The notes beneath the pieces are model-generated. The model was not told the DNA's origin. It ran no database searches and saw only the letters and a program-made list of their open reading frames with translations. A program made the position numbers and the translations under genes. Below, piece by piece: positions 10,030 to 62,545 of a stretch of 64,000 nucleotides of DNA (its first letter is position 1; every line of letters starts with the position of its first letter). Origin of the DNA: Rhodocyclales bacterium. GTDB lineage: Bacteria > Pseudomonadota > Gammaproteobacteria > Burkholderiales > Rhodocyclaceae. The stretch spans positions 124,001 through 188,000 of the forward strand of contig JACRPA010000006.1 of assembly GCA_016214145.1 (NCBI GenBank), written 5' to 3'.

Positions 10030-10052
10030 GCCGTCCTGCGGGGGCTGACTTT
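10030..10052 (+). repeat. Dispersed 23-bp GCCGT-N10-CTGACTTT motif, copy 1
   Basis: GCCGT, ten bases (CCTGCGGGGG), CTGACTTT. This copy is intergenic, between the zapB-like gene and the cobalamin riboswitch, and its CTGACT lies 15 nt upstream of a TATAAT box. Confidence 0.85.
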
Positions 10053-10071
10053 GCGGTTTTGCCGCTATAAT
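10045..10071 (+). promoter_or_regulatory. Putative sigma70 promoter of the cobalamin riboswitch/btuBCD transcript
   Basis: A perfect -10 box TATAAT lies at 10066-10071, upstream of the riboswitch. The best -35 is CTGACT at 10045-10050 (shares the TGAC core with TTGACA), 15 nt away; it is part of the dispersed 23-bp motif. The transcript would start near 10078. This is read from sequence only. Confidence 0.6.
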
Positions 10072-10111
10072 CCGCTCCGCCGCAGGGCTTAGAGTCCGCG
10101 GCATCCTGTTC

Positions 10112-10552
10112 AAGGTGCTCTGCCGGCCCTCCGCCGGCAGGTTAAACGGGAATGAGGTGCGCAGGCCCGGCCTGCAATGCCTCAGCTGCCCCCGCAACGG
10201 TAAGCAAGTGCGGGTCCGCCACACAGCCACTGGGTGAAGAGCGCCTAACAGGAGGAAACACGTATGCGGCTAGGGCATTCGGCTGCGGAACAAGGCGCGC
10301 CGACGCCGCTTGGGTGATTCCCAAGCAAGGAGGCGCAACGCCGTGCCGCGGCCGAATGCCGACGCCCCTTTGGGTTGGGCTTTGGCGGCGCGTCTGCGTC
10401 GTTGCAGCGCTTGCCCGCAGATGACTGCGGGCGGCGCGCGGCGCCTAGCATCCATCGCCGCCAAAGCCCAACGCATACGTGTTTCCTCCTGTTAGGCGCT
10501 CTAGCCCGGGAAGGCGGCGGATCAAGACTTGCGAGCCCGGATACCGGCCTCG
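10112..10552 (+). promoter_or_regulatory. Cobalamin riboswitch, split by an inverted-repeat element
   Basis: Hallmarks of the AdoCbl aptamer are present in order: AGGTGCTCTGCCGG, GTTAAACGGGAATGAGGTGCG, GCCTCAGCTGCCCCCGCAACGG, GTGCGGGTCCGCCACACAGCCACTGGG, then after the insertion CCCGGGAAGGCGGCGGAT and the 3' box GAGCCCGGATACCGGCCT. The aptamer is interrupted at its variable hairpin (between GCCACTGGG and CCCGGGAAGG) by about 265 bp with 31-bp perfect inverted ends. Because the insertion sits on a naturally variable stem, the core could still fold. It lies upstream of btuB, so AdoCbl should repress the transporter operon. Confidence 0.93.
10238..10502. repeat. 265-bp inverted-repeat (MITE-like) element inside the riboswitch
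   Basis: Perfect 31-bp terminal inverted repeats (10238-10268 and 10472-10502; ends AGAGCGCCTAAC / GTTAGGCGCTCT). Inside are two further hairpins: 10274-10288 pairs with 10346-10360 (one mismatch), and 10374-10390 pairs perfectly with 10456-10472. Smaller stems occur at 10308-10326 and 10413-10432. The whole could fold as a three-way cruciform. Both outer arms carry AGGAGG-AAACACGT-ATG. No transposase gene and no clear target duplication are visible. Confidence 0.85.
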
Positions 10553-10694
10553 GACAGACCAGTTCGGAATCGCCGCGGGGGTGCGGCCACCGGCACCGGG
10601 CCTGCCCGATCCGTTCGAAGCCCCCTCCAGCGTTTCCGCCATTCGACATTGTCCGGCAGCGGGGACGCAGGCCGGCGAACGGGGAGTCTTTTCG

Positions 10695-12671
10695 ATGCAT
10701 GCTTCTTTCCTGCGCAAGGCATTCGCGCCTTTTCTATTCTCCGCAGTATTTTCAGTCCAGGCCGCCACGAGTGAAGACGAAGCGACGGTCGTCGTGACCG
10801 CCAGCCGTTTCAGCGCGCCGGCGCTTGAGCAGCCCATCGCCATCCAGGTCATCACCGCCGAGCAGATCCGCGAGAGCACTGCGGTCAATGTCTCCGAGGT
10901 CCTGTCCAAGCTGGGCGGCGTCCATGCGCGCATCAATTTCCTCGGCATTCCGGACTCGCCGATCGACCTGCGCGGCTTCGGCATGAGTGGCGACCAGAAC
11001 ACCCTGCTGCTGGTGAACGGCCAGCGCTATTCCGAAAACGAGCTGATCTCGGCGCGCATCTCGGCGATTCCGCTCGACAGCATCGAGCGCATCGAGATCC
11101 TGCGCGGCGCCGGCGCCGTGCTCTACGGCGGCGGCGCGACGGGCGGCACCATCAACATCATCACCCGCTCGCCGCTGTCCGTGCCGTCGGGGGGGAATGT
11201 GTCACTGGCGCTGGGCAGCCATGAGATGCGCGATGCGCGCGGCAGCTTCAGCGCCGGCAGCGGCCCGTGGGGCCTCAGCCTGCACGCCCAAAGCCAGCAG
11301 AGCGACAACTACCGGCAGAACAACCATTCCTCCCAGGACGCCGTCTCCGGCGAGTGGCGCTATGTCGGGGACGAGGGCGCCCTGTCGCTGCGCTTCGGTG
11401 CCGACGACCAGCGCGCCCGCCTGCCCGGCCCGCGCACCGAGCTGCAGCTGAAGACCGATCCGCGCGGCACCTCGACGCCGAACGACTACGCCAACTCGCG
11501 CTCCGAACAGGCCGGACTGCACGGGGAGCAGCGCTTCGGCGACGTCACAGTGGCGGCCGATGCCGGCCAGCGGCGCAAGACCTCGCGCTATTTCTTCGAT
11601 TTCGGCTTCGGCTTCAGCTCGCGCCAGGATACGGAGGTGACGGTCAATTCGGTGTCGCCCCGCCTGCACTGGAACACCACGCTCGCCGGCATGGCCAACC
11701 GCCTGACGGCGGGCGTCGACTGGAGCGAATGGTCCTACGGCAACGACACCCTGAGCGGCTTCGGCAACCGCGACGAGTCCGGTCGCCAGCATAACCGCGC
11801 CGTCTATGTCCGCGACGAGCTCGGTCTCACCGCCACCACCCGCCTCACCGCCGGCCTGCGCCGGGAGCGCGTCGAGCAGGAACAGCGCGAGCGGCTGACG
11901 CCGCTGCCCAAGGCGGACAGCAGCCGCAACCTGACCGCCAGCGAGCTGGCCCTGCAGCAGCAGTTCGGCGGCGGCTGGTCGGCCTACGGCCGCCTCGGCC
12001 GCAGCTTCCGCGTCGCCAACATCGACGAGAACCGCTGCTTCTTTCCCCCCTGCGCGCCGTTGCTCAAGCCGCAAACTTCGCAGGACCGGGAAATCGGCCT
12101 GCAGTGGCGGGCCGGCAAGGCCGCCTTCCGCGCCAGCCTGTTCGACATCGACCTGAAGAACGAGCTGCACTACAACGCCATCACCTTCACCAACATGAAC
12201 CTGCAGCCGACGCGGCGCCGCGGACTCGAGCTGGAGGGCAAGGCGCCGCTCGGCGCCGACCTGGAGCTGGGCGCGCGCTACGCGTACACCGACGCCCGCT
12301 TCCGCGACGGCAGCTACGGCGGCTTCGATGTCGGCGGCAACCAGGTGCCGCTGGTGCCGCGCCAGCGCGCCGGTCTCTCCCTCGGCTGGAAGGTCGCCGT
12401 GCCGACGCGGCTGACTTTCTCGCTCAGCCACATCGGCGAGCAGCGCTACGACAACGACCAGCGCAATCTCTTCCGCCGCATGCCGTCCTACACCGTCGCC
12501 GACATCAAGCTGTCGCACCAGGCCGGCAGCTGGCGCCTGGCGGCCGGGGTGAACAACCTCTTCGACAAGGCCTATTACAGCTACGCCATCGTCAACGGCG
12601 CCTTCACCACCTTCAACGCCTATCCGGAGGACCGGCGCAACGCCTACGTCAGCGCCGAGTTGAAGTTCTAG
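10695..12671 (+). CDS. btuB: TonB-dependent vitamin B12 receptor BtuB
   Basis: A 658-residue outer-membrane receptor. ATG 10695 gives a signal peptide (LRKAFAPFLFSAVFSVQA) and then a TonB-box-like EATVVVTASRF. The plug follows (IDLRGFGMSGDQNTLLLVNG, IEILRGAGAVLYGGGATGG), then a beta barrel ending in VSAELKF with the typical C-terminal Phe. It imports cobalamins across the outer membrane using TonB energy. The upstream cobalamin riboswitch and the downstream btuCD make B12 the likely ligand. The frame is open further 5', but that part is riboswitch sequence. One dispersed 23-bp motif copy lies inside at 12396-12418. Confidence 0.95.
   Translation: MHASFLRKAFAPFLFSAVFSVQAATSEDEATVVVTASRFSAPALEQPIAIQVITAEQIRESTAVNVSEVLSKLGGVHARINFLGIPDSPIDLRGFGMSGDQNTLLLVNGQRYSENELISARISAIPLDSIERIEILRGAGAVLYGGGATGGTINIITRSPLSVPSGGNVSLALGSHEMRDARGSFSAGSGPWGLSLHAQSQQSDNYRQNNHSSQDAVSGEWRYVGDEGALSLRFGADDQRARLPGPRTELQLKTDPRGTSTPNDYANSRSEQAGLHGEQRFGDVTVAADAGQRRKTSRYFFDFGFGFSSRQDTEVTVNSVSPRLHWNTTLAGMANRLTAGVDWSEWSYGNDTLSGFGNRDESGRQHNRAVYVRDELGLTATTRLTAGLRRERVEQEQRERLTPLPKADSSRNLTASELALQQQFGGGWSAYGRLGRSFRVANIDENRCFFPPCAPLLKPQTSQDREIGLQWRAGKAAFRASLFDIDLKNELHYNAITFTNMNLQPTRRRGLELEGKAPLGADLELGARYAYTDARFRDGSYGGFDVGGNQVPLVPRQRAGLSLGWKVAVPTRLTFSLSHIGEQRYDNDQRNLFRRMPSYTVADIKLSHQAGSWRLAAGVNNLFDKAYYSYAIVNGAFTTFNAYPEDRRNAYVSAELKF
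12396..12418 (+). repeat. Dispersed 23-bp motif, copy 2 (within btuB)
   Basis: GCCGT, GCCGACGCGG, CTGACTTT; read in the gene frame as A-V-P-T-R-L-T-F. Same 10-nt spacing as the other copies. Confidence 0.8.
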
Positions 12672-16172: not shown

Positions 16173-17297
16173 ATGCAATTCGTCATTTCGGCGCCGGACG
16201 ACAGCCTGCGCGCCGCCTTGCAGGCAAAGATCGACGGCAAGACCAAGCCGCTCGGCGCGCTCGGCCGGCTGGAGGGCCTGGCCCTGCAGCTCGGCCTGAT
16301 CCAGCAGACCCTCTCGCCCGAATTGCGCAAGCCGCACATCCTCGTCTGCGCCGGCGACCACGGCGCGGCGAAAGCCGGCATCTCGGCCTACCCGCAGGAC
16401 GTCACCTGGCAGATGGTGGAGAATTTCCTCGCCGGCGGCGCCGCCATCAACGTGCTGGCGCGCCAGGGCGGCATCGAGCTGGTGGTGGCCGACGCGGGTG
16501 TGGCGCATGACTTCGGACCACGCGACAAACTCGTCGACGCAAAAGTCAGTCTCCGTGGCACGGCGAGTTACCTCGAAGGCCCGGCCATGAGCGCCGAGCA
16601 GTGCGGGACGGCGATGGCGCGCGGCGCGCAAATTGTCGCCGAGCTTCACGCCCGAGGCTGCAACGTCGTGGGCTTCGGCGAGATGGGCATCGGCAACACC
16701 GCCTCGGCCTCGCTCATCACGCATTTCCTGGCCGGGATTCCGCTGGAAGACTGCGTCGGCCGCGGCACCGGCCTCGACGACGCCGGCGTGTCGCGCAAGC
16801 TGACTTTGCTGCAACAAGCGGCGGCGCTCTACGGCGGCGATCCTGCGCCGCTATCGGTTTTGTCGCGTTTCGGCGGCTTCGAGATCGCCATGCTGGCCGG
16901 CGGCATGCTCGCCGCCGCCGAGCGGAAGATGCTGCTGCTCATCGACGGCTTCATCGTTACCTCGGCCCTGCTGGTCGCCGCCACGCTGCATCCGACGACG
17001 CTGCAGTACTGCGTCTTCTCGCACCGATCGCAGGAGCGCGGCCACCGCCTGCAGCTGGAGCATCTCGGCGCGCGGCCGCTGCTCGACATGGACCTGCGCC
17101 TGGGCGAAGGCACCGGCGCGGCGCTGGCCTGGCCGCTGGTGCGCGCGGCGGCGGCCTTCCTCAACGAGATGGCGAGCTTTGAATCGGCGGGCGTGAGCGA
17201 ACAATCGCCCGCCCCTCTCCCCCAACCCCTCCCCCGCGAGGGGGGAGGGGAGCTTCTTGCGCCGCTGTGCGGCGGGAATATCGATGCAGCGAGGTGA
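16173..17297 (+). CDS. cobT: Nicotinate-nucleotide--dimethylbenzimidazole phosphoribosyltransferase CobT
   Basis: A 374-residue enzyme that makes alpha-ribazole phosphate from NaMN and dimethylbenzimidazole. Signatures are [40 protein letters not shown] and [21 protein letters not shown] 16173 is chosen over 16158 because CAGGAGA lies 8 nt before it. The normal domain ends at [16 protein letters not shown]; the last 28 or so residues ([15 protein letters not shown] and on) are encoded by a dispersed C/G-rich repeat. Two copies of the 23-bp motif lie inside. Confidence 0.93.
16542..16564 (-). repeat. Dispersed 23-bp motif, copy 3 (within cobT, reverse)
   Basis: On the minus strand GCCGT, GCCACGGAGA, CTGACTTT. 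In the gene it reads AAA GTC AGT, with the A/T-ending AGT serine codon unusual in this G+C-rich gene. Confidence 0.8.
16785..16807 (+). repeat. Dispersed 23-bp motif, copy 4 (within cobT)
   Basis: GGCGT, GTCGCGCAAG, CTGACTTT; one mismatch in the GCCGT box. Read in frame as G-V-S-R-K-L-T-L. Confidence 0.65.
17213..17252. repeat. CCCCTCTCCCCC / GGGGGGAGGGG inverted repeat
   Basis: A C-rich block (CCCCTCTCCCCCAACCCC) and a complementary G-rich block (GAGGGGGGAGGGGAG) separated by CCCGC. It lies inside the end of the cobT frame and encodes its unusual Pro/Gly-rich tail. Confidence 0.75.
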
Positions 17298-17406: not shown

Positions 17407-18180
17407 ATGGGAATGATCCAACGCGAGATCGGTTATTTCTTCGGCGCGCTGCGCTTCTTCACGCGGCTGCCGGTGCCGGCATGGGTCGGGCATTCGCAGG
17501 ACGCGCTCGACCGGGCGGCGCGCTACTTCCCGCTGGTCGGCATCCTCGTCGGCGTATCGGGGGGGCTGACTTTTCTCCTGGCGGCCTTCGTCCTGCCGGT
17601 GTCCCTCGCCATCCTGCTCAGCATGGCGACGACGCTGCTCGTCACCGGCGCCTTCCACGAGGACGGGCTGTCGGATGCGGTCGACGGTTTCGGCGGCGGC
17701 TGGAGCAAGGAACAAGTGCTGGCGATCATGAAGGACTCGCGCATCGGCAGCTATGGCGCCATCGCCATCGCGCTGATGCTGCTGGCGAAATTCAACGCCC
17801 TGCTCGAGCTGCCCGACGAATGGATCGCGCCGGCCATCGTAGCCGCGCATGCCGCCTCGCGCTTCTGCTCGACGGCGCTGATCTACGCCCTCGATTACGT
17901 GCGCGACGACGACTCGTCGCGCGCCAGGCCGCTCGCCGTGCGCATGGGCGCGGGCAGCCTCGCCGTGGCCGGCCTCTTCGGCCTGGCGCCGCTGGCGCTG
18001 CTGCCGTGGCAGGCGGCCGGCGCCGGCCTGCTGCTGGCTCTGCTCACGACCTTTCTCGCCGCGCGCTACTTCGCGAAACGCATCGGCGGCTACACCGGCG
18101 ACTGCCTCGGCGCGACGCAGCAGGGCGCCGAGCTGGCGATCTACCTCGGCGTTCTCGCGGCGGCATGGAACTTTTCCTGA
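17407..18180 (+). CDS. cobS: Adenosylcobinamide-GDP ribazoletransferase CobS
   Basis: A 257-residue integral membrane enzyme joining adenosylcobinamide-GDP to alpha-ribazole to complete B12. Family signatures are LRFFTRLPVP near the N-terminus, YFPLVGILVG, and FHEDGLSDAVDGFGGGW with the acidic metal-binding residues, followed by IGSYGAIA; GGYTGDCLGATQQ is near the C-terminus. An internal ATG at 17413 is an alternative start. It overlaps cobC by 16 nt and contains a 23-bp motif copy at 17551-17573. Confidence 0.93.
   Translation: MGMIQREIGYFFGALRFFTRLPVPAWVGHSQDALDRAARYFPLVGILVGVSGGLTFLLAAFVLPVSLAILLSMATTLLVTGAFHEDGLSDAVDGFGGGWSKEQVLAIMKDSRIGSYGAIAIALMLLAKFNALLELPDEWIAPAIVAAHAASRFCSTALIYALDYVRDDDSSRARPLAVRMGAGSLAVAGLFGLAPLALLPWQAAGAGLLLALLTTFLAARYFAKRIGGYTGDCLGATQQGAELAIYLGVLAAAWNFS
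17551..17573 (+). repeat. Dispersed 23-bp motif, copy 5 (within cobS)
   Basis: GGCGT, ATCGGGGGGG, CTGACTTT followed by TC. Read in frame as G-V-S-G-G-L-T-F. Confidence 0.75.
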
Positions 18181-23114: not shown

Positions 23115-25838
23115 TTAGTGCGCCTCGTCCCAGTTGTCGCCGGCGCCGACTTCCGCCAGCAGCGGCACGGAGAGCTGCGCCACGCCGGCCATGAGCCTGG
23201 GCAGTTCGCGGCGCACTGAATCGAGCTCCGCTTCCGGCACCTCCAGCACCAGTTCGTCGTGCACCTGCAGGATGAGCAGCGAGGCCTTGCGTTGTTCATC
23301 CAGCCAGCGCTGCACGGCGATCATCGCCAGCTTGATGATGTCGGCGGCGGTGCCCTGCATCGGCGCGTTGATGGCGGCGCGCTCGGCGGCCTGTCGCCGT
23401 GCCGGGGCGGCTGACTTTATCTCCGGCAGCCAGAGGCGGCGGCCGAACACCGTCTCGACGTAGCCCTTGTCGCGGGCCAGCAGCCGCGTCGATTCCATGT
23501 AGCGCGCGACGCCGGGATAGCGGGCGAAGTAGCGGTCGATGTAGGCCTGCGCTGCGCCGCGATCGAGGCCGAGCTCGCGCGCCAGGCCGAAGGCCGACAT
23601 GCCGTAGATGAGGCCGAAGTTGATCACCTTGGCGTAGCGGCGCTGCTCGCTCGACACCTCCGCCGGCGCCGCGCCGAACACCTCGGCGGCGGTGGCGCGG
23701 TGGATGTCCTCGCCCGAGGCGAAGGCGTCGAGCAGCCCCTGGTCCTCCGACAGGTGGGCCATGATGCGCAGCTCGATCTGCGAGTAGTCGGCGGAGACGA
23801 TCTTCGATCCCGCCGGCGCGACGAAGGCCTGGCGGATGCGCCGGCCCTCTTCCGTGCGGATGGGGATGTTCTGCAGGTTCGGGTCGGAGCTGGCCAGCCG
23901 CCCGGTGACCGCCACGGCCTGGGCGTAGTTGGTGTGCACGCGGCCGGTGGCCGGGTCGACCGAGCGCGGCAGCTTGTCGGCGTAGGTGCTCTTCAGTTTC
24001 GCCATGCCGCGGTAGTCGAGGATCAGTCTCGGCAGCGGATAGTCGAGCGCCAGCTGTTCCAGCACCTCCTCGTCGGTGGACGGCGCGCCCGAGGGCGTTT
24101 TTTTGAGCACCGGCAGCTTCTCGCGCTCGAAGAGGATTTCCTGGATCTGCTTGGGCGAGTTGAGGTTGAAGGGCTGCTTCGCCACCTCGTGCGCCTGCCT
24201 TTCGATCTCCATCATGCGCAGGCCGAGCTCCTGCCCCTGCCGCACAAGAAGCGCGGCGTCGACCAGCACGCCGTTGCGCTCCATGCGGAAGAGGATCTGC
24301 ATCACCGGCACTTCGATGTCGCGGTAGAGCGCTTCCAGGCGCGGCTCCGCGGCAAGCTGCGGGGAGAGCGCCTCGTGCAGGCGCAGCGTGATGTCGGCGT
24401 CCTCGGCGGCATACTCGGCGGCGTGCGCGATGTCGACCTGGTCGAAGCCGATGCGCCCGGCGCCCTTGCCGGTGACCTCGTCGTACTTGATGGTGGCGAT
24501 GCCGAGGTGGCGCGCGGCGAGCGAATCCATGTCGTGGGCCTTGTCGGACTCGACGACGTAGGACTCCAGCAGGGTGTCGTGCGCGCCGCCGGCGAGGCGG
24601 ATGCCGTGGTTGGCGAGCACGTGCATGTCGTACTTGAGGTTCTGCCCGACCTTGGCATGGCGCGGCGATTCCAGCCAGGGCTTCAGCTTCGCCAATGCTT
24701 CATCGAAAGTCAGTTGCTGCGGCACGCCGGCATAGCGGTGGGCGAGCGGCAGGTAGGCGGCCTCGCCGTCGGTGACGGCGAAGGACAGGCCGACCAGCCG
24801 CGCCAGCATCGGGTCGAGGCTGGTGGTCTCGGTGTCGAAGGCCGTCAGCGGTGCGGCGTCGAGCTTCTTCAGCCAGGCCTCGAAATGTGGCCAGTCGAGG
24901 ATCGTCTCGTAGCCTTTCCGGTGATCGGTGGTGCCTGTAGGAGCCGGCTTGCCGGCGATCGGCGGCTGCGTCGCCGGCAAGCCGGCTCCTACAGGGGCTT
25001 CCAGTTCGCGCAGCCATGTCTTGAACTCCAGGCGCGAAAACAGTTCGGCGAGCTTCGCCTTGTCGGGCGGCGCAGGCTGAAGGTCGGCCACCTTCACCGG
25101 CAGCGCGAGGTCGCTGACGACGGTGACGAGCTTCCTGCCGAGCGGCAGGAAATCCAGCGCCTTGCGCAGGTTCTCGCCGACCACGCCGCCGATCTCTCCG
25201 GCATGGGCGACGATGGCGTCGAGGCTGCCGTACTGCTGCAGCCATTTCACGGCAGTCTTGGGGCCGACCTTGTCGACGCCCGGCACATTGTCCACGCTGT
25301 CGCCGACCAGCGCGAAGTAGTCGACGATCAGCGAAGGTCCGACGCCGAACTTGGCCAGCACGCCGGCTTCGTCGAGCACCTCGTTGCTCATGGTGTTCAC
25401 CAGCCGCACGTGCGGATTGACCAGCTGCGCCAGGTCCTTGTCGCCGGTGGATACCACGCACGCGATGCCCTGGCGGCTGGCTTCCTGCGTCAGCGTGCCG
25501 ATGACGTCGTCGGCCTCGACGCCTTCGATGGAGAGCAGCGGCCAGCCGAGGGCGCGGATGCACTCGTGCAAAGGCTCGATCTGGCGCGCGAGATCGTCCG
25601 GCATGGGCGGGCGATGCGCCTTGTAGTCCGGGTACCATTCGTCGCGGAAGGTCTTGCCCTTGGCATCGAAGACGCAGGCAAGGTAGTCCGCCTTGAAGTC
25701 GCTACCCAGGCGGCGTAGCATGTTGATGACCCCGTACACCGCGCCGGTCGGCTCGCCCGCCTTGTTGCGCAGGTCGGGCATGGCGTGGAAGGCGCGGTAG
25801 AGGTAAGAGGAGCCGTCGACCAGCAGCAGCATGGACAT
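23115..25838 (-). CDS. polA: DNA polymerase I
   Basis: A 907-residue Pol I with three domains: 5'-3' exonuclease (1 to about 275), 3'-5' proofreading exonuclease with intact FDTETTSLD (D and E near 331-333), and polymerase with motif A SADYSQIELR, motif B RRYAKVINFGLIYG and motif C LQVHDELVLE. It fills gaps in repair and Okazaki-fragment processing. The linker after the 5' nuclease (residues about 282-302) is encoded by a complete REP inverted repeat read in frame. Two copies of the 23-bp motif also lie inside. Confidence 0.97.
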   Translation of the reverse strand: MSMLLLVDGSSYLYRAFHAMPDLRNKAGEPTGAVYGVINMLRRLGSDFKADYLACVFDAKGKTFRDEWYPDYKAHRPPMPDDLARQIEPLHECIRALGWPLLSIEGVEADDVIGTLTQEASRQGIACVVSTGDKDLAQLVNPHVRLVNTMSNEVLDEAGVLAKFGVGPSLIVDYFALVGDSVDNVPGVDKVGPKTAVKWLQQYGSLDAIVAHAGEIGGVVGENLRKALDFLPLGRKLVTVVSDLALPVKVADLQPAPPDKAKLAELFSRLEFKTWLRELEAPVGAGLPATQPPIAGKPAPTGTTDHRKGYETILDWPHFEAWLKKLDAAPLTAFDTETTSLDPMLARLVGLSFAVTDGEAAYLPLAHRYAGVPQQLTFDEALAKLKPWLESPRHAKVGQNLKYDMHVLANHGIRLAGGAHDTLLESYVVESDKAHDMDSLAARHLGIATIKYDEVTGKGAGRIGFDQVDIAHAAEYAAEDADITLRLHEALSPQLAAEPRLEALYRDIEVPVMQILFRMERNGVLVDAALLVRQGQELGLRMMEIERQAHEVAKQPFNLNSPKQIQEILFEREKLPVLKKTPSGAPSTDEEVLEQLALDYPLPRLILDYRGMAKLKSTYADKLPRSVDPATGRVHTNYAQAVAVTGRLASSDPNLQNIPIRTEEGRRIRQAFVAPAGSKIVSADYSQIELRIMAHLSEDQGLLDAFASGEDIHRATAAEVFGAAPAEVSSEQRRYAKVINFGLIYGMSAFGLARELGLDRGAAQAYIDRYFARYPGVARYMESTRLLARDKGYVETVFGRRLWLPEIKSAAPARRQAAERAAINAPMQGTAADIIKLAMIAVQRWLDEQRKASLLILQVHDELVLEVPEAELDSVRRELPRLMAGVAQLSVPLLAEVGAGDNWDEAH
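23396..23418 (+). repeat. Dispersed 23-bp motif, copy 6 (within polA, antisense to the gene)
   Basis: GCCGT, GCCGGGGCGG, CTGACTTT. It falls in the segment encoding PEIKSAAPARRQ just before the NAPMQGTAAD motif. Confidence 0.8.
24706..24728 (-). repeat. Dispersed 23-bp motif, copy 7 (within polA, sense)
   Basis: On the gene strand GGCGT, GCCGCAGCAA, CTGACTTT; reads G-V-P-Q-Q-L-T-F in the polA frame. Confidence 0.7.
24934..24995. repeat. REP inverted repeat inserted in frame in polA
   Basis: Near-perfect 25-bp arms (24934-24958 and 24971-24995), beginning CCTGTAGGAGCCGGCTTGCC, of the TGTAGGAGC family. It is translated as part of the Pol I interdomain linker without breaking the frame. Confidence 0.9.
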
Positions 25839-32817: not shown

Positions 32818-34281
32818 ATGAGCGCCAGCGTCAGTGTCCCTTTGTGGCTGTTCCTGATCCTGGCCCTGCTCGCCGCCTGGGCCGCCGGCGTCCTGCTGCT
32901 GGCGCCGGGCATGCGCTGGTTCCTGCGCCGCCGCATCAACACCGTCATCGAGGAACTCAACACCCGCCTGAAGATCGAGCTGCCGTCGTTCAAGCTGACG
33001 CGGCGCGAGGTGCTCATCGACCGGCTCTTCCACGACCCGCGCATCCAGGCCGCCGCCGAGGCGCATGCGAAGGACACCGGCGAGCCGCTGCTCGAAGTGC
33101 GCCGGCGCATCGACCGCTACGCGCGCGAGATCGTGCCCTCCTTCAACGCCTACCTCTACTTCCGCCTCGGCTACTGGCTGGCGAAGAGCGTGGCGCGCCT
33201 GCTCTATCGTGTGCGGCTGGGCTACGCCGACGAGGCCGGGCTGGCGAACGTCGACCCGAAGTCCACCGTGGTGTTCGTCATGAACCACCGCAGCAACATG
33301 GACTACGTGCTGGTGGCCTTCCTCGCCGCCGAGCGCGTGGCCCTCTCCTACGCCGTCGGCGAGTGGGCGCGTGTGTGGGGTCTGCAGGCGCTGATCCGCT
33401 CGATGGGCGCCTTCTTCGTGCGGCGCAATTCCGGCGATCCGCTTTACCGCACGGTGCTGGCGCGCTATGTCAGCATGGCCACCGAGGCCGGCGTGCCGCA
33501 GGCGCTGTTTCCGGAGGGAGGGCTCACCGTGGACGGCGCCTTGCGCAAGCCGCGCTTCGGCCTGCTCGACTACATGGTGAAATCCTTCCGCGCGGACGGA
33601 GCGCGCGACCTGGTCTTCATCCCGGTCGGCCTCAACTACGACCGCGTGCTGGAGGACCGCAGCCAGTTGCTCAAGCTGGAGGAACAGCGGCGGCGGCGCG
33701 GCATGCTCTCCGCCGTATCGGTGACACTGACTTTCATTGGGCGCAACCTGTGGCAGATGCTCACCGGCAACTGGCACCGCTTCGGCTACGCCTGCGTGAA
33801 TTTCGGCAGCCCGTTTTCCATGCGGCAGTACGTTCGCGCGCAGAGGCTGGATTTCCCCGCGCTCGATGAGGACGCCCGCAAGCGCGAGGTCGAGGCGCTG
33901 GGCCGCCGCCTGATGCAGGCCATCGGCGGCGTCATCCCGGTGGTGCCGGTGGCGCTGGTGGCGCAGGTGTTCGGGCAGGACGCGGAGCGGGCGTTGTCGG
34001 AACTGGAAATCAAGTCATCGGCCTGCGATCTTCTGCGCGACTGGGAAAGCCGCGGCGCGCACATCTACATCCCGCGCCACGACCGCGACTACGCCATCGG
34101 CGTCGGCCTGCGCATGCTGACGCTGCGCCATGTTGTCGAGGAGCGCGACGGCCTCTTCCGTCCGGTGCCGGAGAACCTGCCGGTGCTGGCCTACTACGCC
34201 AATTCCGTCGCGCACTTCGGCGGCGAGGCCGTGCAGGCGATTCCGCTGGAGCGGACTGTCGCCGCCCCTGCCGTTCCCTGA
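32818..34281 (+). CDS. Glycerol-3-phosphate/lysophosphatidate acyltransferase (PlsC domain)
   Basis: A 487-residue protein with one N-terminal membrane segment (LFLILALLAAWAAGVLLL) and a PlsC domain with H-x4-D motif NHRSNMDYVLVA and FPEGGLTVDGALRKP. The long C-terminal part has no domain I recognise. ATG 32818 is preceded by GGAGGAG; the frame runs 5' through the REP repeat. It probably acylates a glycerophosphate at the inner membrane. A 23-bp motif copy lies at 33712-33734. Confidence 0.88.
   Translation: MSASVSVPLWLFLILALLAAWAAGVLLLAPGMRWFLRRRINTVIEELNTRLKIELPSFKLTRREVLIDRLFHDPRIQAAAEAHAKDTGEPLLEVRRRIDRYAREIVPSFNAYLYFRLGYWLAKSVARLLYRVRLGYADEAGLANVDPKSTVVFVMNHRSNMDYVLVAFLAAERVALSYAVGEWARVWGLQALIRSMGAFFVRRNSGDPLYRTVLARYVSMATEAGVPQALFPEGGLTVDGALRKPRFGLLDYMVKSFRADGARDLVFIPVGLNYDRVLEDRSQLLKLEEQRRRRGMLSAVSVTLTFIGRNLWQMLTGNWHRFGYACVNFGSPFSMRQYVRAQRLDFPALDEDARKREVEALGRRLMQAIGGVIPVVPVALVAQVFGQDAERALSELEIKSSACDLLRDWESRGAHIYIPRHDRDYAIGVGLRMLTLRHVVEERDGLFRPVPENLPVLAYYANSVAHFGGEAVQAIPLERTVAAPAVP
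33712..33734 (+). repeat. Dispersed 23-bp motif, copy 8 (within the acyltransferase)
   Basis: GCCGT, ATCGGTGACA, CTGACTTT; read in frame as A-V-S-V-T-L-T-F. Confidence 0.8.
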
Positions 34282-40499: not shown

Positions 40500-42119
40500 A
40501 TGCCGATAATCGATAGCAGGGTGGATACCGGCTCCGCCGCCTTCGCCGCCAACCGCGACGCCTGGCTGCGCCTGATCGGCGACTTCCGCGCGCTTGAGCA
40601 GCGCGTGCGCGACGCCTCGGCGAAGGCCAAGCCGGTCTTCGACAGGCGCGGCCAGTTGCTGCCGCGCGAGCGCGTCGAACGGGCGCTCGACGCCGGCTCG
40701 CCCTTTCTCGAACTCGCCACCGTCGCCGGCTGGTGCCTCGACAATCCCGATCCGGCGAAGACCGTCCCCGGCGGCGGCCTCGTCGCCGGCATCGGCACCG
40801 TCTCCGGCGTGCGCTGCATGGTCGCCGCCTCGGATTCCGGCATCGACGCCGGCGCCATCCAGCCGATGGGCCTGGAGAAGATCCTGCGCGTGGTGGCCAT
40901 CGCGCAGGAGAACAAACTGCCCTTCCTGCACCTGGTCGAATCGGCCGGCGCCAACCTGCTCAAGTACCGCGTCGAGGATTTCATCCACGGCGGCGGCCTC
41001 TTCTGCGGCCTGACGCGACTCTCCGCCGCGGGCATCCCGGTGGTGACGGTGGTGCATGGTTCCTCCACCGCCGGCGGCGCCTACATGCCGGGCATGTCCG
41101 ATTACGTGGTGATGGTGCGCGGCCGCGCGAAAGCCTTCCTCGCCGGCCAGGCGCTGCTCAAGGCCGCCACCGGCGAGGACGCCAGCGAGGAGGAACTCGG
41201 CGGCGCCGAGATGCACGCCACGGTCAGCGGCCTCGCCGAATACCTCGCCGAGGACGACGCCGACGGCATCCGCCTCGCCCGCGAGGTGCTGGCCAAGCTC
41301 GACTGGAACCGTGATCAGCGCCGCGAGGAAAAGTCAGTCCCCGCACCACGGCGCGACATCGAGGAATTGCTCGGCCTCGTGCCGCTCGACACGAAAAAGC
41401 CCTACGACGTCCGCGAAGTCATCGCCCGCATCGTCGACGGCTCCGACTTTCTCGACTTCAAGCCGGGCTACGGCGTGTCGACGGTGTGCGGCCACGCCAG
41501 CCTCGACGGTCACGCGGTCGGCCTCTTCGGCAACAACGGCCCGATCGATCCGGCCGGCGCCACCAAGGCCTCGCACTTCATCCAGGCCTGCTGCCAGTCG
41601 GGCACGCCCATCATTTATCTGCAGAACACCACCGGCTACATCGTCGGCAAGGCGAGCGAGCAGGCCGGCATGATCAAGCACGGCGCCAAGATGATCCAGG
41701 CGGTGGCCAACGCCACCGTGCCGCAGATCACCCTGCACATCGGCGCCAGCTTCGGCGCCGGCAACTACGGCATGTGCGGCCGCGCCTACGGTCCGCGCTT
41801 CGCCTTCTCCTGGCCCAACGCGAAGACGGCGGTGATGGGCGGCGAGCAGGCGGCCATGACCATGCGGCTGGTCATGGAGGCGAAATTGAAGCGTGGCGGC
41901 GGTGAAGTCGACACCGCCCAGCTCGACGCGCTCGAAAAGCAGATCATCGACACCTTCGACCGGCAGTCGTCCGCCTTCTACACCAGCGGCCGCCTGCTCG
42001 ACGACGGCATCATCGACCCGCGCGACACGCGCAAGGTGCTGGCCTACGTGCTCTCCATCTGCCGCGAGGCCGAGGCACGCACCCTGCGCCCGGTGCAGTT
42101 CGCGGTCGCGAGGCATTGA
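40500..42119 (+). CDS. Acyl-CoA carboxylase carboxyltransferase (beta) subunit
   Basis: A 539-residue carboxyltransferase of the methylcrotonyl/geranyl-CoA carboxylase type. Both crotonase-like halves are present: HGSSTAGGAYMPGMSDY in the N-terminal half and HIGASFGAGNYGMCGRAY in the C-terminal half. It should carboxylate a branched unsaturated acyl-CoA using the biotin subunit encoded at 43492. The start MPIIDSRVDTGSAAF resembles AtuC/LiuB proteins; choosing between them needs phylogeny. A 23-bp motif copy lies inside. Confidence 0.92.
   Translation: MPIIDSRVDTGSAAFAANRDAWLRLIGDFRALEQRVRDASAKAKPVFDRRGQLLPRERVERALDAGSPFLELATVAGWCLDNPDPAKTVPGGGLVAGIGTVSGVRCMVAASDSGIDAGAIQPMGLEKILRVVAIAQENKLPFLHLVESAGANLLKYRVEDFIHGGGLFCGLTRLSAAGIPVVTVVHGSSTAGGAYMPGMSDYVVMVRGRAKAFLAGQALLKAATGEDASEEELGGAEMHATVSGLAEYLAEDDADGIRLAREVLAKLDWNRDQRREEKSVPAPRRDIEELLGLVPLDTKKPYDVREVIARIVDGSDFLDFKPGYGVSTVCGHASLDGHAVGLFGNNGPIDPAGATKASHFIQACCQSGTPIIYLQNTTGYIVGKASEQAGMIKHGAKMIQAVANATVPQITLHIGASFGAGNYGMCGRAYGPRFAFSWPNAKTAVMGGEQAAMTMRLVMEAKLKRGGGEVDTAQLDALEKQIIDTFDRQSSAFYTSGRLLDDGIIDPRDTRKVLAYVLSICREAEARTLRPVQFAVARH
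41330..41352 (-). repeat. Dispersed 23-bp motif, copy 9 (within the carboxylase beta gene, reverse)
   Basis: On the minus strand GCCGT, GGTGCGGGGA, CTGACTTT followed by TCC, one of the closest copies to consensus despite lying in a gene. Confidence 0.85.
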
Positions 42120-43491: not shown

Positions 43492-45525
<2,034 letters not shown>

Positions 45526-46716: not shown

Positions 46717-48849
<2,133 letters not shown>

Positions 48850-52269: not shown

Positions 52270-53079
52270 ATGCTCGCCTTCGCCGGCAACTCGGTGCTGT
52301 GCCGCATCGCGCTGCGGGAGACGAACATCGACGCGGCGAGCTTCACCACCATCCGACTGGCGTCGGGGGCGGTGGTGCTGTGGCTGATCGTGCGGTTCTT
52401 TCGCCGGTCGCAGGCCGGCGGGGGCAACTGGATTTCGGCGCTGATGCTGTTCGCCTACGCCGCCGGTTTTTCCTTCGCCTACCTGAGCCTGACCACGGCA
52501 ACGGGCGCGCTGCTGCTCTTCGGCGCGGTGCAGGCGACGATGATTCTCTGGGGCCTGTGGCGCGGCGAGCGCTTCGGCGCGCGGCAGCTCGCCGGCCTCG
52601 CGCTCGCGGTCGGCGGACTCGTCGGGCTGTTGCTGCCGGGGCTCTCGGCGCCGCCGCTGTTCGGCGCGGCCCTGATGCTGATGGCGGGCGCGGCGTGGGG
52701 CGTGTATTCGATCCGCGGCAAGGGGGCGGGCGACGCCACGCGCGTGACGGCGGGCAACTTCCTGCGCGCGGTGCCCTTCGCCGTCGTGCTGAGCCTGCTG
52801 CCGCTGGCCGACGCGCGTCTGGATGCGGCGGGCGTCGGCTACGCGCTGGCCTCCGGCGCGATCACCTCCGGCCTCGGCTACGCCATCTGGTACACCGTGC
52901 TGCCCATGTTGAAGTCGACGAGCGCGGCGACCGTGCAACTCAGCGTGCCGGTGATCGCCGCGCTGGGCGGCATCGTCTTCCTCGGCGAGGCGGTGTCGCT
53001 GCGCTTCGTGCTGGCTTCCTCAGCGGTTCTCGGCGGCATCGCGCTGGTGATCCTCAGCGCGCCGTCCCGCGGGGGCTGA
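52270..53079 (+). CDS. EamA/DMT family transporter, copy 1 (N-terminus probably truncated)
   Basis: A 269-residue drug/metabolite transporter with about ten hydrophobic segments in two EamA repeats (FAGNSVLCRIALRETNIDAA; GYAIWYTVLPMLKSTSAATV with PVIAALGGIVFLGE). The first codons before ATG are not homologous to copy 2, and a TAG lies at 52240, so roughly ten N-terminal residues of helix 1 may be lost. About 820 bp are nearly identical to 58278-59097. Its stop codon is the TGA of a dispersed 23-bp motif. Confidence 0.8.
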   Translation: MLAFAGNSVLCRIALRETNIDAASFTTIRLASGAVVLWLIVRFFRRSQAGGGNWISALMLFAYAAGFSFAYLSLTTATGALLLFGAVQATMILWGLWRGERFGARQLAGLALAVGGLVGLLLPGLSAPPLFGAALMLMAGAAWGVYSIRGKGAGDATRVTAGNFLRAVPFAVVLSLLPLADARLDAAGVGYALASGAITSGLGYAIWYTVLPMLKSTSAATVQLSVPVIAALGGIVFLGEAVSLRFVLASSAVLGGIALVILSAPSRGG

Positions 53080-53083
53080 CTTT
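53061..53083 (+). repeat. Dispersed 23-bp motif, copy 13 (end of EamA copy 1)
   Basis: GCCGT, CCCGCGGGGG, CTGACTTT followed by TCCC. The TGA inside CTGACTTT is the stop codon of the gene, and near-identity with copy 2 ends just after it. Confidence 0.9.
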
Positions 53084-58175: not shown

Positions 58176-59086
58176 TTGCGGAATTGCCTACTCCCGAGTC
58201 ATGCAATTGGCAATCTCAATCTGAATGTATTTTTCATAGCGTCTTCCGCCCCAACCCTCCTCCTAACCACCCTCACCATGCTCGCCTTCGCCGGCAACTC
58301 GGTGCTGTGCCGCATTGCGCTGCGGGAGACGGGCATCGACGCGGCGAGTTTCACCACCATTCGCCTCGCGTCTGGGGCGGTGGTGCTGTGGCTGATTGTG
58401 CGGTTCTTTCTCCGCGCGCAGGCGGGCGGGGGCAACTGGATTTCGGCGCTGATGCTGTTCGCCTACGCCGCCGGCTTTTCCTTCGCGTATCTGAGCCTGA
58501 CCACGGCGACGGCGCGCTGCTGCTCTTCGGGGCGGTGCAGGCGACGATGATCTGCTACGGCTTGTGGCGCGGCGAGCGCTTCGGCGCGCGGCAGCTCGCG
58601 GGCCTGGCGCTCGCCGTCGGCGGACTCGTCGGGCTGCTGCTGCCGGGGCTGTCGGCGCCGCCGCTGTTCGGCGCGGCCCTGATGCTGATGGCGGGCGCGG
58701 CGTGGGGCGTGTATTCGATCCGCGGCAAGGGGGCGGGCGACGCCACGCGCGTGACGCCGGGGAATTTCCTGCGCGCGGTGCCCTTCGCCGTCGTGCTGAG
58801 CCTGCTGCCGCTCGCCGACGCCAGCCTGGATGCGGCGGGCGTCGGCTACGCGCTGGCTTCCGGCGCGATCACCTCCGGGCTCGGCTACGCCATCTGGTAC
58901 ACCGTGCTGCCCATGTTGAAGTCGACAAGCGCGGCGACCGTGCAGCTCAGCGTGCCGGTGATCGCGGCGCTGGGCGGCATCGTCTTCCTCGGCGAGGCCG
59001 TGTCCCTGCGCTTCGTGCTGGCCTCCGCCGCCGTGCTCGGCGGCATCGCGCTGGTGATCCTGAATTCGCCGTCCCGCCGGGACTGA
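58176..59086 (+). pseudogene. EamA/DMT family transporter, copy 2 (frameshifted)
   Basis: Almost the same gene as 52270-53079. At about 58510 one G is missing from the GGG present in copy 1, so the first 110 or so residues (TLLLTTLTMLAFAGNSVLCR and on) and the remaining domain (LLLFGAVQATMICYGLW and on) are in different frames. It retains upstream sequence absent from copy 1. Its 3' end coincides with a dispersed 23-bp motif whose TGA is the stop codon. A sequencing error would be the alternative explanation. Confidence 0.85.
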
Positions 59087-59097
59087 CTTTTCCCCTC
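58278..59097 (+). repeat. Direct repeat, right copy (EamA unit)
   Basis: Right partner of the repeat at 52269-53088, one base shorter because of the frameshift near 58510. Confidence 0.9.
59068..59090 (+). repeat. Dispersed 23-bp motif, copy 14 (end of EamA copy 2)
   Basis: GCCGT, CCCGCCGGGA, CTGACTTT followed by TCCCC. The TGA is the stop codon. Confidence 0.9.
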
Positions 59098-59503: not shown

Positions 59504-59526
59504 GCCGTACTGCGGGGACTGACTTT
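59504..59526 (+). repeat. Dispersed 23-bp motif, copy 15 (between higA and a phosphatase gene)
   Basis: GCCGT, ACTGCGGGGA, CTGACTTT followed by TCCCCGC. GCGGGGA and TCCCCGC can pair with CTGACTTT as the loop, so this copy is a potential hairpin. Confidence 0.9.
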
Positions 59527-59561: not shown

Positions 59562-60173
59562 ATGCCAAGCCCCGCCCACGTCTGCGTCACCCGCCACGGC
59601 GAAACCGACTGGAACATCGCCGGGATATTGCAGGGCTGGCACGACGTGCCGATCAACGAGGCGGGCCGGCGCCAATCGCGCGAGTTGGCGGCGGCGTTTG
59701 CCGGGGCGGGCTTCGCGTCGGTGTGGACGAGCCCGCTGGCCCGCGCGCGGGAGACGGCGGACATCGTGGCCGTTGCGCTCGGGCTGCCGCCGCCGTTCTG
59801 CCACGACGGATTGAAGGAGCGGCATTTCGGCGCCATCCAGGGCGTGCCGAAAGCCGAGCTGGCCGAGCAGGATCCGCTGCTGTTGCAACAGATTCTCCGG
59901 CGCAATCCGGCGGCGCACTTCGAGGAGGGCGAGACGATGGACGAATTCGCCGAGCGGGTGCTGGGCGCGGTGCTGGACATCGGCGCGCGGCATGCCGGCG
60001 AGCGCGCCCTCGTCATCACCCACGGCTGGGTCATGGACGTGGTCACGCGCCACGTCGGCGGACTGCCGCGCAGCGCGATCCTGAATTTGAAGCGGAAGAA
60101 CGGCGAGAGCCTTTGGCTGGAGACGGACGGCCGCGCCATCCTGCCTGGGCACGCGCCGTCCTGCGGGGGCTGA
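59562..60173 (+). CDS. Histidine phosphatase family protein (GpmB-like)
   Basis: A 203-residue phosphoglycerate-mutase-like phosphatase with VCVTRHGETDWNIAGILQG (R-H-G near residue 9), TSPLARARETADIV, the acidic KERHFGAIQG and ALVITHGWVMDVV. The substrate is unknown. ATG 59562 is the start that begins right before the domain. The C-terminus HAPSCGG ends in the TGA of a 23-bp motif copy. Confidence 0.88.
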   Translation: MPSPAHVCVTRHGETDWNIAGILQGWHDVPINEAGRRQSRELAAAFAGAGFASVWTSPLARARETADIVAVALGLPPPFCHDGLKERHFGAIQGVPKAELAEQDPLLLQQILRRNPAAHFEEGETMDEFAERVLGAVLDIGARHAGERALVITHGWVMDVVTRHVGGLPRSAILNLKRKNGESLWLETDGRAILPGHAPSCGG

Positions 60174-60177
60174 CTTT
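60155..60177 (+). repeat. Dispersed 23-bp motif, copy 16 (end of the phosphatase gene)
   Basis: GCCGT, CCTGCGGGGG, CTGACTTT followed by TTCC. The TGA is the stop codon. Confidence 0.9.
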
Positions 60178-60219
60178 TTCCGCTGCGCCGCCGGGGCGCC
60201 CTGAATCCAGTTGTTGTTG

Positions 60220-60247
60220 TGGATTCCCGCTTGCGCGGGAATGACGG
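60220..60247. repeat. GTCATTCCCGCG-type hairpin repeat
   Basis: GGATTCCCGCTTGCGCGGGAATGACGGG, a single complete unit in the gap between convergent genes (phosphatase and Spy-like). It could act as a bidirectional transcript end. Confidence 0.8.
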
Positions 60248-60255
60248 GCGCTCTT

Positions 60256-60771: not shown

Positions 60772-60850
60772 GTGAATCTCCTGAGTGGTTGAGGCAACGG
60801 CGCCCATTTGACACGCAGGATGTAAGCGAAATTTATCAACCGCAGTCGGA

Positions 60851-60880
60851 TTTGTTACAGCTTGTTACAGCTTGTTACGG
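60851..60880. promoter_or_regulatory. Three 10-bp direct repeats (TTGTTACAGC) between divergent genes
   Basis: TTGTTACAG-C-TTGTTACAG-C-TTGTTACGG, repeating every 10 bp, i.e. once per helical turn. OmpR/PhoB-family regulators (e.g. CpxR, RstA) bind direct repeats with this period; GTTAC-type words fit. It could control the Spy-like gene, the kinase gene or both. Confidence 0.6.
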
Positions 60881-60979
60881 CGCCGCGGCTCGCGCAAGAA
60901 GCTTTTAAGCTGACAGGGTTTTTTTGGAGAGCAATGAATACTATAATTTAGACGTAAAGTATCGTGGTCTTGCATTCAA

Positions 60980-62515
60980 TTGAGCAACGAAACCTCCAGC
61001 CGGAACGGCATTTCGCCCCAGCAGCAAATAGCCCTTCTGGTCTTCGAAAACCTGGCCGAGGGGGTCATCTTCACCGACGCCGGCGGCACCATTCTCACGG
61101 TCAATGCCGGCTTCACGCGCATCACGGGATATACCGCGGACGAAGTGATCGGCCGCAATCCCCGCCTCCTCCAGTCCGGCGTCCAGGAGCGCGATTTCTA
61201 CGAGGAGATGTGGCGCACCCTCAAGACCGCCGGCCGCTGGCGGGGCGAGATCATCAACCGGCGCAAGTCGGGCGAACTGTATCCGGAACTGCTGTCGATC
61301 AGCGCCGTGCGCGACGCCGAGGGCGGCATCACCAACTACATCGGCGTCTTTTCCGATCTGAGCGAACGGCTGGCGCAGGAGCGCGCGGTGCGCGAAATGC
61401 GCGAAAGGCTCGATCTCGCGCTCGACGCCGGCGGCGTCGGCACGTGGATCTGGGAGCCGGGCAGCGGCCGCCTGGAATGCGATGAGCGCGCCTGCGAACT
61501 GATCGCGGGATCGCAGAACGATCCGCCGCGCACGTTCGAGGCGCTGCTGGAGCGGATCCCGGCTTACGAACGGCCCCGCGTCATGGATGCCTTCATGCGC
61601 CCGACGCGCCAGCAACTGACGTTTCGAGTCGAATTCCGGGTGGTATTGCCGGATGGCGCGGACCGTCACCTGGTGGCGCGCGCCAGACCGCATTGCGGCG
61701 AAGCGGACGGCGTCTGCCGCGTCTTCGGCGTCATCTGGGATGTCACCGAGCGCTACCTGCGCGAACGCGAGATCCGGGAACTCAACGCCACGCTCGAACT
61801 GCGCGTAGAGGAGCGCACCGCCGACCTGCAGGCCGCCGTGGCCGAGCTGGAGTCGTTTTCGTACTCGGTCGCGCACGACCTGCGCGCGCCGCTGCGCGGC
61901 CTGGACGGCTTCAGCAAGATCCTCATCGACGACTACGGCGACCGGCTCGACGAGGACGGCCGCCAGCATCTCCGGCGCATTCGCGCGGCCAGCCAGCGGC
62001 TCGACCGCCTGATCGAAAACCTGCTGAAGCTCTCGCGGATATCGCAGTCGCGCATGGAGCGCGTCCCGGTGAACCTGAGCGGGATGGCCCGGGAAGTCGC
62101 CATCGTCCTGCAGGAAGAGCAGCCCCAGCGCGGTGCCGAGTTCGTCATCGAGCGCCGGCTGCGCGCCGTCGGCGACCCGGTCCTGCTTCGCGCGCTGCTG
62201 GAGAACCTGCTCGGCAATGCCTGGAAATACTCATCCCGCAAGGAACGGGCGCGGATCGAGTTCGGCGCGAAGCGGATCGGGGAGGAGGAAACGGCCTTCT
62301 TCGTCCGCGACAACGGGGACGGCTTCGACATGGCCCTTGCCGGCAAACTGTTCGCGCCCTTCCAGCGCCTGCACGGCACGGACGAGTTCGCCGGAACGGG
62401 CGTGGGACTGGCCTCCGTCGCCAGGACCGTCTCGCGCCATGGCGGCCGGGTGTGGGCGGAGGCCGCCAAGGGCGAGGGCGCGACTTTTTTCTTTACGCTG
62501 CCCGATCACGGCTGA
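60980..62515 (+). CDS. PAS-domain sensor histidine kinase
   Basis: A 511-residue kinase without obvious membrane segments. PAS1 is at about 20-130 (ENLAEGVIFTDAGGTILTVN, ITGYTADEVIGRNPRLLQSG), a second PAS/PAC-like region at about 145-270, a coiled coil (LNATLELRVEERTADLQAAV), HisKA with SYSVAHDLRAPLRGLDGF (His near 299) and HATPase with ENLLGNAWKYSS, DNGDGFDM and GTGVGLASV. TTG 60980 is the only sensible start; no ATG is available upstream in frame. No response regulator gene lies next to it in this window. Confidence 0.9.
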   Translation: MSNETSSRNGISPQQQIALLVFENLAEGVIFTDAGGTILTVNAGFTRITGYTADEVIGRNPRLLQSGVQERDFYEEMWRTLKTAGRWRGEIINRRKSGELYPELLSISAVRDAEGGITNYIGVFSDLSERLAQERAVREMRERLDLALDAGGVGTWIWEPGSGRLECDERACELIAGSQNDPPRTFEALLERIPAYERPRVMDAFMRPTRQQLTFRVEFRVVLPDGADRHLVARARPHCGEADGVCRVFGVIWDVTERYLREREIRELNATLELRVEERTADLQAAVAELESFSYSVAHDLRAPLRGLDGFSKILIDDYGDRLDEDGRQHLRRIRAASQRLDRLIENLLKLSRISQSRMERVPVNLSGMAREVAIVLQEEQPQRGAEFVIERRLRAVGDPVLLRALLENLLGNAWKYSSRKERARIEFGAKRIGEEETAFFVRDNGDGFDMALAGKLFAPFQRLHGTDEFAGTGVGLASVARTVSRHGGRVWAEAAKGEGATFFFTLPDHG

Positions 62516-62522
62516 GCCAGTC

Positions 62523-62545
62523 GCCGTATCGCGGCGACTGACTTT
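62523..62545 (+). repeat. Dispersed 23-bp motif, copy 17 (after the kinase gene)
   Basis: GCCGT, ATCGCGGCGA, CTGACTTT followed by TCCC, seven nt after the kinase stop and six nt before the convergent hydrolase stop. Confidence 0.9.

Follow-up and report, generated by a model that had tools for sequence, protein, structure and literature searches.

The stretch of DNA analysed here (the window) comprises 64,000 nucleotides of a Rhodocyclales bacterium (assembly GCA_016214145.1, contig JACRPA010000006.1, positions 124,001 to 188,000), and belongs to a genome of 3,422,993 bases in 12 contigs (3.42 Mb), referred to below as G000. Scattered within and between genes, among them polA and a cobT-like gene, the window carries 17 copies of a short motif composed of two boxes, GCCGT-N10-CTGACTTT, which is the subject of this report. 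An earlier reading of the letters of the window (the sequence-only reading) had listed 17 copies with their coordinates and strands, and a scan allowing up to two mismatches returned exactly these, against a mean of 1.07 and a maximum of 5 in 100 dinucleotide shuffles. Twelve copies are exact, three carry the GGCGT form of the left box, and two are degenerate with one and two mismatches, as had been described (Table 1). According to heuristic gene calls, nine of the 15 good copies lie in genes, three at gene edges and three between genes; together with the two degenerate copies, which share a single open reading frame (ORF), this gives the eleven genic copies reported earlier.

The genome-wide excess that the sequence-only reading had proposed to look for is plain: G000 contains 223 exact copies of GCCGT-N10-CTGACTTT on the forward strand and 219 on the reverse strand (442 copies, one per 7.7 kb), compared with 1 and 0 for the reversed pattern. 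The spacing was examined in a 464-kb sample of this genome, consisting of the window and 400 kb of contig C3 (G000:C3:1-400000), where the pattern GSCGT-Nk-CYGACTTT, scanned for k from 4 to 16, gave 63 sites at k = 10, none at k = 9 or 11, and at most two at any other length, so that the ten-nucleotide spacing noted in the window is indeed invariant. In the same sample CTGACTTT is the top over-represented octamer by order-3 Markov counts, with 80 occurrences versus 3.8 expected; in G002, a complete congener, ACTGACTT, which represents the same motif, ranks first and CTGACTTT second. Markov counts of the highest order missed the motif, since the shorter words within it are enriched too.

A sequence logo of the 80 octamer occurrences refines the description of the boxes. 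The forms GCCGT and GGCGT given for the left box hold for the window copies but are incomplete, as a leading C, present in 88% of the occurrences, extends this box to the six bases CGCCGT, each of which is conserved at 81-95%. The spacer is biased to NYYGCGGRGA and little is conserved past the right box, the conserved unit being 24 bp without a larger repeat or conserved flank beyond it. The TTTTCCC continuation described previously stands as a tendency but not as a rule, with T following the right box in 26 of the 63 copies and TCCC, TTCC or TTTC in eight. Over the 14 box positions the mismatch spectrum is bimodal, with 56, 18 and 11 sites having zero, one and two mismatches (0, 2 and 4 for the reversed pattern) before chance matches set in. 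Two further words are over-represented in this sample: TAGGTCGG (54 copies versus 22.7), perhaps a repetitive extragenic palindromic (REP) element, and the tandem-like word CACAGAGA (42 versus 1.7).

The 63 sites comprise 46 coding copies (28 sense and 18 antisense), 12 located between genes and five at gene edges, against a coding share of 84% and 90% in the underlying sequence. A reading frame is preferred, CTG ACT TT. being found in 22 of the 28 sense copies and AAA GTC AG. in 11 of the 18 antisense copies. Strand and position were followed in G002 through 20 evenly spaced 20-kb samples, which contain 30 exact copies on the forward and 22 on the reverse strand (16 and 10 in the first ten samples, 14 and 12 in the last ten). 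No orientation by position was seen in these samples, the strands being mixed on both halves of a chromosome whose origin is unmapped, nor was any region enriched, with one to six sites of a wider form of the motif in each sample. A replichore polarity that seemed apparent in G002, with 100 out of 100 forward sites among the matches listed, was discarded, as it reflected the order of listing and the direct samples showed both strands. The 47 distances between neighbouring sites in the 400 kb of C3 are compatible with an exponential law (Kolmogorov-Smirnov (KS) p=0.43).

The density of sites climbs with local GC. In 864 one-kb bins taken from two genomes, sites number 60 above 68% GC (278 kb), 50 between 62 and 68% (446 kb), 4 between 56 and 62% (114 kb) and 2 below 56% (26 kb); six sites in 140 kb thus lie below 62%, compared with 110 in 724 kb above, GC being only a proxy for acquired DNA. 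The earlier remark that the low-G+C genes are free of the motif is true in the window; over the bins below 56%, where 3.5 sites were expected, the difference is not significant, and GC indicates foreign origin only crudely. No inverted pair within 120 bp was present among 173 sampled sites (a few counted twice where samples overlap), and two whole-genome site listings contain one such pair each; a terminator role was dismissed because of this rarity. A phage-borne element was likewise rejected, as among the viral stretches listed (at least 120), 118 carry a single copy, one carries two and one three.

The distribution of the motif among relatives was determined by scanning three patterns in the same 395 genomes (68 genera) of the GTDB family, including G000 itself. 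By hand tally, 65 of these genomes, from eight genera, are carriers with at least 90 copies of one spelling (90-674 copies). GCCGT-N10-CTGACTTT is the spelling of the genus of G000, where 13 of the 16 genomes have 151-454 exact copies and three are motif-poor (G009 with 4, G012 with 21 and G013 with 45); elsewhere this spelling reaches 70 copies in G061, 58 in G315, 55 in G185, 21 in G151, 11 in G104, 9 in both G238 and G326, and 0-5 in the rest. Six genera (g2, g9, g19, g62, g70 and g88) use GCCGT-N10-CCGACTTT, with 91-355 copies in 17 of the 22 genomes of g2 (15-63 in the other five), 674 in the one genome of g9, 589 in the one genome of g62, 141-561 in 16 of the 19 genomes of g19 (0, 7 and 25 in the others), 105-399 in all four genomes of g70, and 189-313 in all nine of g88. 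The genus g90 uses GGCGT-N10-CTGACTTT (290-377 copies in four of six genomes, 2 and 4 in the others), which is present at 11-42 copies in the 13 motif-rich members of the genus of G000 and is therefore a minor form there. Non-carrier genera have at most 12 copies of any pattern, G061 (g47) excepted, and the reversed control gave no more than seven matches in any genome scanned, in the family or the order. The merged pattern GSCGT-N10-CYGACTTT occurs 0-5 times in 386 genomes from other families of the order, with the exception of G475, which has 17 copies of mixed spelling. The spacers vary as well, being mostly CYYGCCAGCG in G315 (12 places) and RCCRCSAYGR in G185 (five places), both small samples.

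Within the genus of G000, the CCGACTTT form is found 0-9 times except in G003 (134 copies) and G007 (198), in which CTG and CCG are present in similar numbers (151/134 and 170/198, respectively). In a polA tree, based on one gene and a quick method, G003 and G007 are sisters (SH-aLRT 99), G009 and G013 are nested on long branches, and G012 is placed at the base of the genus. Word and dyad counts in G009, G012 and G013 (237, 216 and 143 kb, with some Ns in G013) revealed no alternative spelling, only palindromic repeats and common codon words, with a few weak dyads in G012; these genomes may have lost the system, or their spelling may not be visible to such counts.

G061, a single contig of 2,704,353 bp, has 70 CTG, 16 CCG and 9 GGC copies, perhaps a fourth spelling. 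A few copies of the CCG spelling, accompanied by its spacer and often 5-41 kb apart, occur in genera otherwise without the motif and are possible footprints of carrier DNA (Table 1). Contig WBUF01000087.1 (1-5620) of the Rhodocyclaceae metagenome-assembled genome SB9 has six motif copies on a direct duplication, approximately 2.1-2.2 kb apart, two pairs being separated by 41 bp. The motif-poor G009 is rich in short palindromes, e.g. TGGGA-N15-TCCCA and CCCCT-N3-AGGGG, perhaps a REP family.

Conservation of position between relatives, which the sequence-only reading had recommended examining, was assessed with G000 as reference against five motif-rich congeners (G001, G002, G004, G011 and G010, with 10, 16, 8, 7 and 5 aligned sites), and the intact motif is retained in 35 of the 46 site comparisons. 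Substitutions were found at 18 of 598 box positions (3.0%), versus 98 of 460 spacer positions (21%) and 303 of 1801 positions in the 20-bp flanks (17%); the associated Fisher p=6e-22 is too small, because all comparisons have the same reference and partly the same sites and are not independent. Boxes are thus 97% and flanks 83% identical, and for the DNA uptake sequence (DUS) of Neisseria values of 97% versus about 85% are given (Treangen 2008, PMC2397512). None of the aligned sites is kept in the motif-poor congeners, neither the seven in G009 (boxes changed at 23 of 91 positions versus 57 of 280 in flanks), nor the two in G013 (14 of 26 versus 10 of 80), nor the one in G012 (6 of 13 versus 7 of 40). 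Between G007 and G000 no site aligned. Two copies in polA are illustrative: site A occurs in each of the ten motif-rich genomes readable there (G000, G001, G002, G003, G004, G007, G008, G010, G011 and G014) and absent in the three motif-poor congeners, whose protein reads QLDF or QLPL at this place and not QLTF, while site B is found among congeners in intact, one-step-degenerate and lost versions.

Table 1. Motif copies and neighbouring genes in the window, and motif copies in genera otherwise without it. Gene context is from heuristic gene calls, and status at orthologous places from alignment to congeners.
Feature	Position	Strand	Context	Orthologous places
Motif copy	10030..10052	+	intergenic	intact G001, G004; one mismatch G002; lost G011
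Motif copy	12396..12418	+	coding, sense	intact G004, G011; G001, G002 without alignment
Motif copy	16542..16564	-	antisense in cobT-like gene (PF02277)	intact G001, G002, G004, G011
Motif copy, GGCGT form	16785..16807	+	sense in cobT-like gene	kept G001, G004; one further mismatch G002; lost G011
Motif copy, GGCGT form	17551..17573	+	coding, sense	kept G001, G004, G011; one further mismatch G002
Motif copy, polA site B	23396..23418	+	antisense	intact G004, G011, G008, G015; one mismatch G001, G010; three G002
Motif copy, GGCGT form, polA site A	24706..24728	-	sense	in 10/10 motif-rich genomes readable there; absent G009, G012, G013
Motif copy	33712..33734	+	coding, sense	intact G001, G002, G010
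Motif copy	41330..41352	-	coding, antisense	intact G001, G002; one mismatch G010
Degenerate copy, 1 mismatch	44980..45002	+	in 677-aa ORF 43492-45525	exact copy at orthologous place in G002
Degenerate copy, 2 mismatches (could be chance)	45367..45389	+	in 677-aa ORF 43492-45525	
Motif copy	48163..48185	-	coding, antisense	intact G001, G002
Motif copy	53061..53083	+	gene edge, between the two low-GC blocks	
Motif copy	59068..59090	+	gene edge	
Motif copy	59504..59526	+	intergenic	
Motif copy	60155..60177	+	gene edge	
Motif copy	62523..62545	+	intergenic	
Low-GC gene	49223-51238	-	AIPR domain (PF10592, 130 bits)	
Neighbouring genes	51342-51974; 52204-52938; 53326-54906; 55086-56039		no Pfam match at E 0.001	
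Gene near end of low-GC block	56073-57971	+	Tle1-like phospholipase domain of type VI secretion systems (PF09994, 256 bits)	
CCG-spelling copies, possible footprints	G120:C1:1461266-1502266; G094:C66, C104; G093:C50; G046; G475		genera otherwise without the motif	

ComEC (PF03772) was found in 15 of the 16 genomes of the genus, the exception being G012 (81% complete), and in 27 of the 30 genomes searched overall. A ComP_DUS pilin above the cut-off is present in 12 of these 16 genomes and in 34 of the 40 genomes examined, whether or not they have the motif. Both genes occur with and without the motif and therefore do not predict it, and as discriminating genes they were rejected, being found in carriers and non-carriers alike. 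In G000 the pilin is encoded by the first gene of a minor-pilin operon (L352), followed by fimT, pilV, pilW, a gene without family match in the place of pilX, and pilY1. Its product is the one PF16732 (Pfam ComP_DUS) pilin of G000, at 37.1 bits versus a cut-off of 27.3, and contains four cysteines, the number needed for the two disulfides of ComP (PMC12616744, PMC4906244). An AlphaFold2 model of this pilin, constructed from nine sequences of the genus, has a mean pLDDT of 82.8 and a pTM of 0.71. The ComP_DUS pilin is a plausible receptor for the motif, and the FimT encoded beside it is equally so, neither being singled out.

Based on these results, the motif is probably a DNA-uptake sequence, a bipartite tag of self-DNA that is spelled CGCCGT-N10-CTGACTTT in the genus of G000. 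Its occurrence on both strands, its coding copies, boxes that are kept while flanks drift, lineage spellings and rare degenerate copies correspond to the signature published for uptake sequences (PMC3630211, PMC2397512, PMC2346458), and are the reason for this interpretation. The resemblance to uptake sequences suggested from the window has gained comparative support from the genus spellings, the kept boxes, the equal use of the strands and the preferred coding frame. From this likeness we infer an uptake preference, a receptor and a molecular drive that would operate as follows. At the cell surface, a minor pilin of the type IV pilus would preferentially bind free DNA with the tag and touch the two boxes, one turn apart, from the same face of the helix; ten bp are approximately one helical turn, which would place both boxes on one side and suits a single receptor surface as well as two adjacent pilins. 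The bound DNA would be drawn in, pass through ComEC, and recombine into the chromosome. Tagged fragments would be taken up and recombined more often, by which copies would be kept clean, mutants restored and new places gained. The spellings of the genera would have drifted apart, and exchange between genera would be limited.

Several findings weigh against an uptake sequence. The motif-poor members of carrier genera require loss or another spelling, and those in the genus of G000 too have the machinery (ComEC and ComP_DUS pilin in G009 and G013, the pilin only in G012), as do most motif-free relatives, which are pooled with carriers in the counts given above. No pilin match was obtained in G006, G007, G008 and G014, four of the 13 motif-rich members of the genus (53-87% complete). 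The pilin model is closest to FimA, a Shewanella pilin and PilV, and the two ComP structures follow in fourth and fifth place (E 4.2e-3 and 8.7e-3). Comparison with the PDB by sequence also yields pilins, PilE and PilA among them, but no entry that bears the name ComP. The census of machinery covered ComEC and the minor pilins. At its density of one per 7.7 kb the motif has fewer copies than several neisserial dialects, its inverted pairs are rare, and conservation at fixed places would fit any bound protein.

A chromosome-organising or nucleoid protein that binds the motif in the cell, its sites being selected for chromosome maintenance, was the alternative put forward in the sequence-only reading. 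It would account for hundreds of dispersed sites at conserved positions, and the fixed spacing of the two boxes suits a dimeric DNA-binding protein, but it has lost ground and is now unlikely: the 20 samples of G002 display neither positional orientation nor an enriched region, neighbour distances over 400 kb are compatible with those of randomly placed sites, some congeners manage without the motif (G009, 98% complete, has 4 copies), and respelling hundreds of sites between genera would be difficult if their binding were essential. A modification or defence mark, at which a methyltransferase or a defence system sparing marked DNA would act, appears very unlikely. Lineage spellings would suit a changing specificity subunit, and type I restriction sites, which are bipartite with a fixed gap, have a similar layout; however, restriction targets tend to be avoided and not conserved, 13-14 specified bases exceed any restriction target known to us, and with the observed density most short DNA would be left unmarked.

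The hypothesis of a very short, REP-like mobile repeat copied around the genome draws on the high copy number in either orientation and a certain excess in intergenic DNA, and is extremely unlikely in view of the 46 out of 63 copies that lie in genes with a preferred frame, the end of flank conservation at 24 bp, and the presence of the motif at matching positions of several species, where the surroundings align and the spacer differs. The same observations exclude a transposon, which the sequence-only reading had already considered a poor match. The idea that base composition, codon use or assembly produced the motif incidentally, for which the GC-rich genomes and their skewed words would speak, is already refuted by the counts: the reversed pattern remains at its control level in every genome, most related genera have 0-5 copies, other spacer lengths are not enriched, and the motif is seen in the single-contig genomes G001 and G002.

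No account of such a motif in Rhodocyclaceae or Rhodocyclales was found in the literature searched (partly by title, with most subscription journals and bioRxiv outside its scope), nor did this literature contain CTGACTTT together with 'uptake sequence' or the string CAGCGCCGACTTT. The words Rhodocycl, GCCGT and CTGAC are absent from a survey of spaced motifs (PMC5217627), and neither competence nor transformation nor type IV pil is mentioned in the 2021 paper on Candidatus (Ca.) Desulfobacillus denitrificans (PMC8402940); the authors of that paper presume that the organism represents a new family of the Rhodocyclales, and NCBI places this organism in Betaproteobacteria incertae sedis. If the motif is an uptake sequence, natural transformation is predicted in these bacteria, one of which comes from anammox reactors (PMC8402940), and the motif would provide a tag for transforming them.

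Compared with known systems, the motif differs from REP and other short mobile repeats in being mostly coding and in having no longer conserved unit. Sites of the KOPS, AIMS, Chi and matS type are, like the motif, short and over-represented, genome-wide or regionally, but they are strand-polar or regional, and in the samples of G002 the motif is neither. The uptake signal sequence (USS) of the Pasteurellaceae has AT-rich tracts as its outer parts, whereas in the motif both boxes are specific. Similarities to the USS are the enrichment, the lineage variants and the excess outside genes (PMC2346458, PMC12616744), but the USS core, AAGTGCGGT or ACAAGCGGT (PMC5217627, PMC2346458), is an unrelated sequence that the consensus CGCCGT-N10-CTGACTTT does not share, and inverted pairs, common in Haemophilus terminators (PMC5217627), are rare for the motif. 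The predicted receptor of the USS is ComN/PpdA (PMC12616744).

As with the DUS of the Neisseriaceae, dispersed copies in and between genes number in the hundreds to thousands, exceed their flanks by far in conservation, and come in lineage dialects (PMC3630211, PMC2397512); ComEC occurs in the genus of G000 and a pilin with the ComP_DUS domain in G000 itself, and the consensus of the motif includes GCCGT and CTGA, the halves of GCCGTCTGAA, a coincidence that is striking but weakened because it was noticed after the fact and because of the CCG spelling. In contrast to the 10-12 contiguous bases of the DUS, the motif consists of two boxes exactly 10 bp apart, covering 23-24 bp, its inverted pairs are rare, and CTG, conserved in all neisserial dialects, of which several have 2000-3600 DUS per genome (PMC3630211), is replaced by CCG in six of the eight carrier genera. 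It is doubtful whether the motif is a bipartite uptake sequence without precedent beyond Neisseriaceae and Pasteurellaceae, read by a receptor that contacts two boxes one helical turn apart, that is related by descent to the neisserial DUS as the halves of GCCGTCTGA set 10 bp apart; if related by descent, ComP-like self-DNA recognition would predate the Neisseriaceae, with the reading geometry changed and the helical register kept. The motif is read as acting like DUS and USS yet standing outside both described families, being bipartite and longer. A third bacterial family with uptake sequences, if true, would provide an independent case for how such sequences arise, spread and are respelled, in a setting of environmental bacteria where carrier and non-carrier genera are adjacent and the sister pair G003 and G007 has two spellings at once, and the two-box layout would allow the receptor contacts to be dissected.

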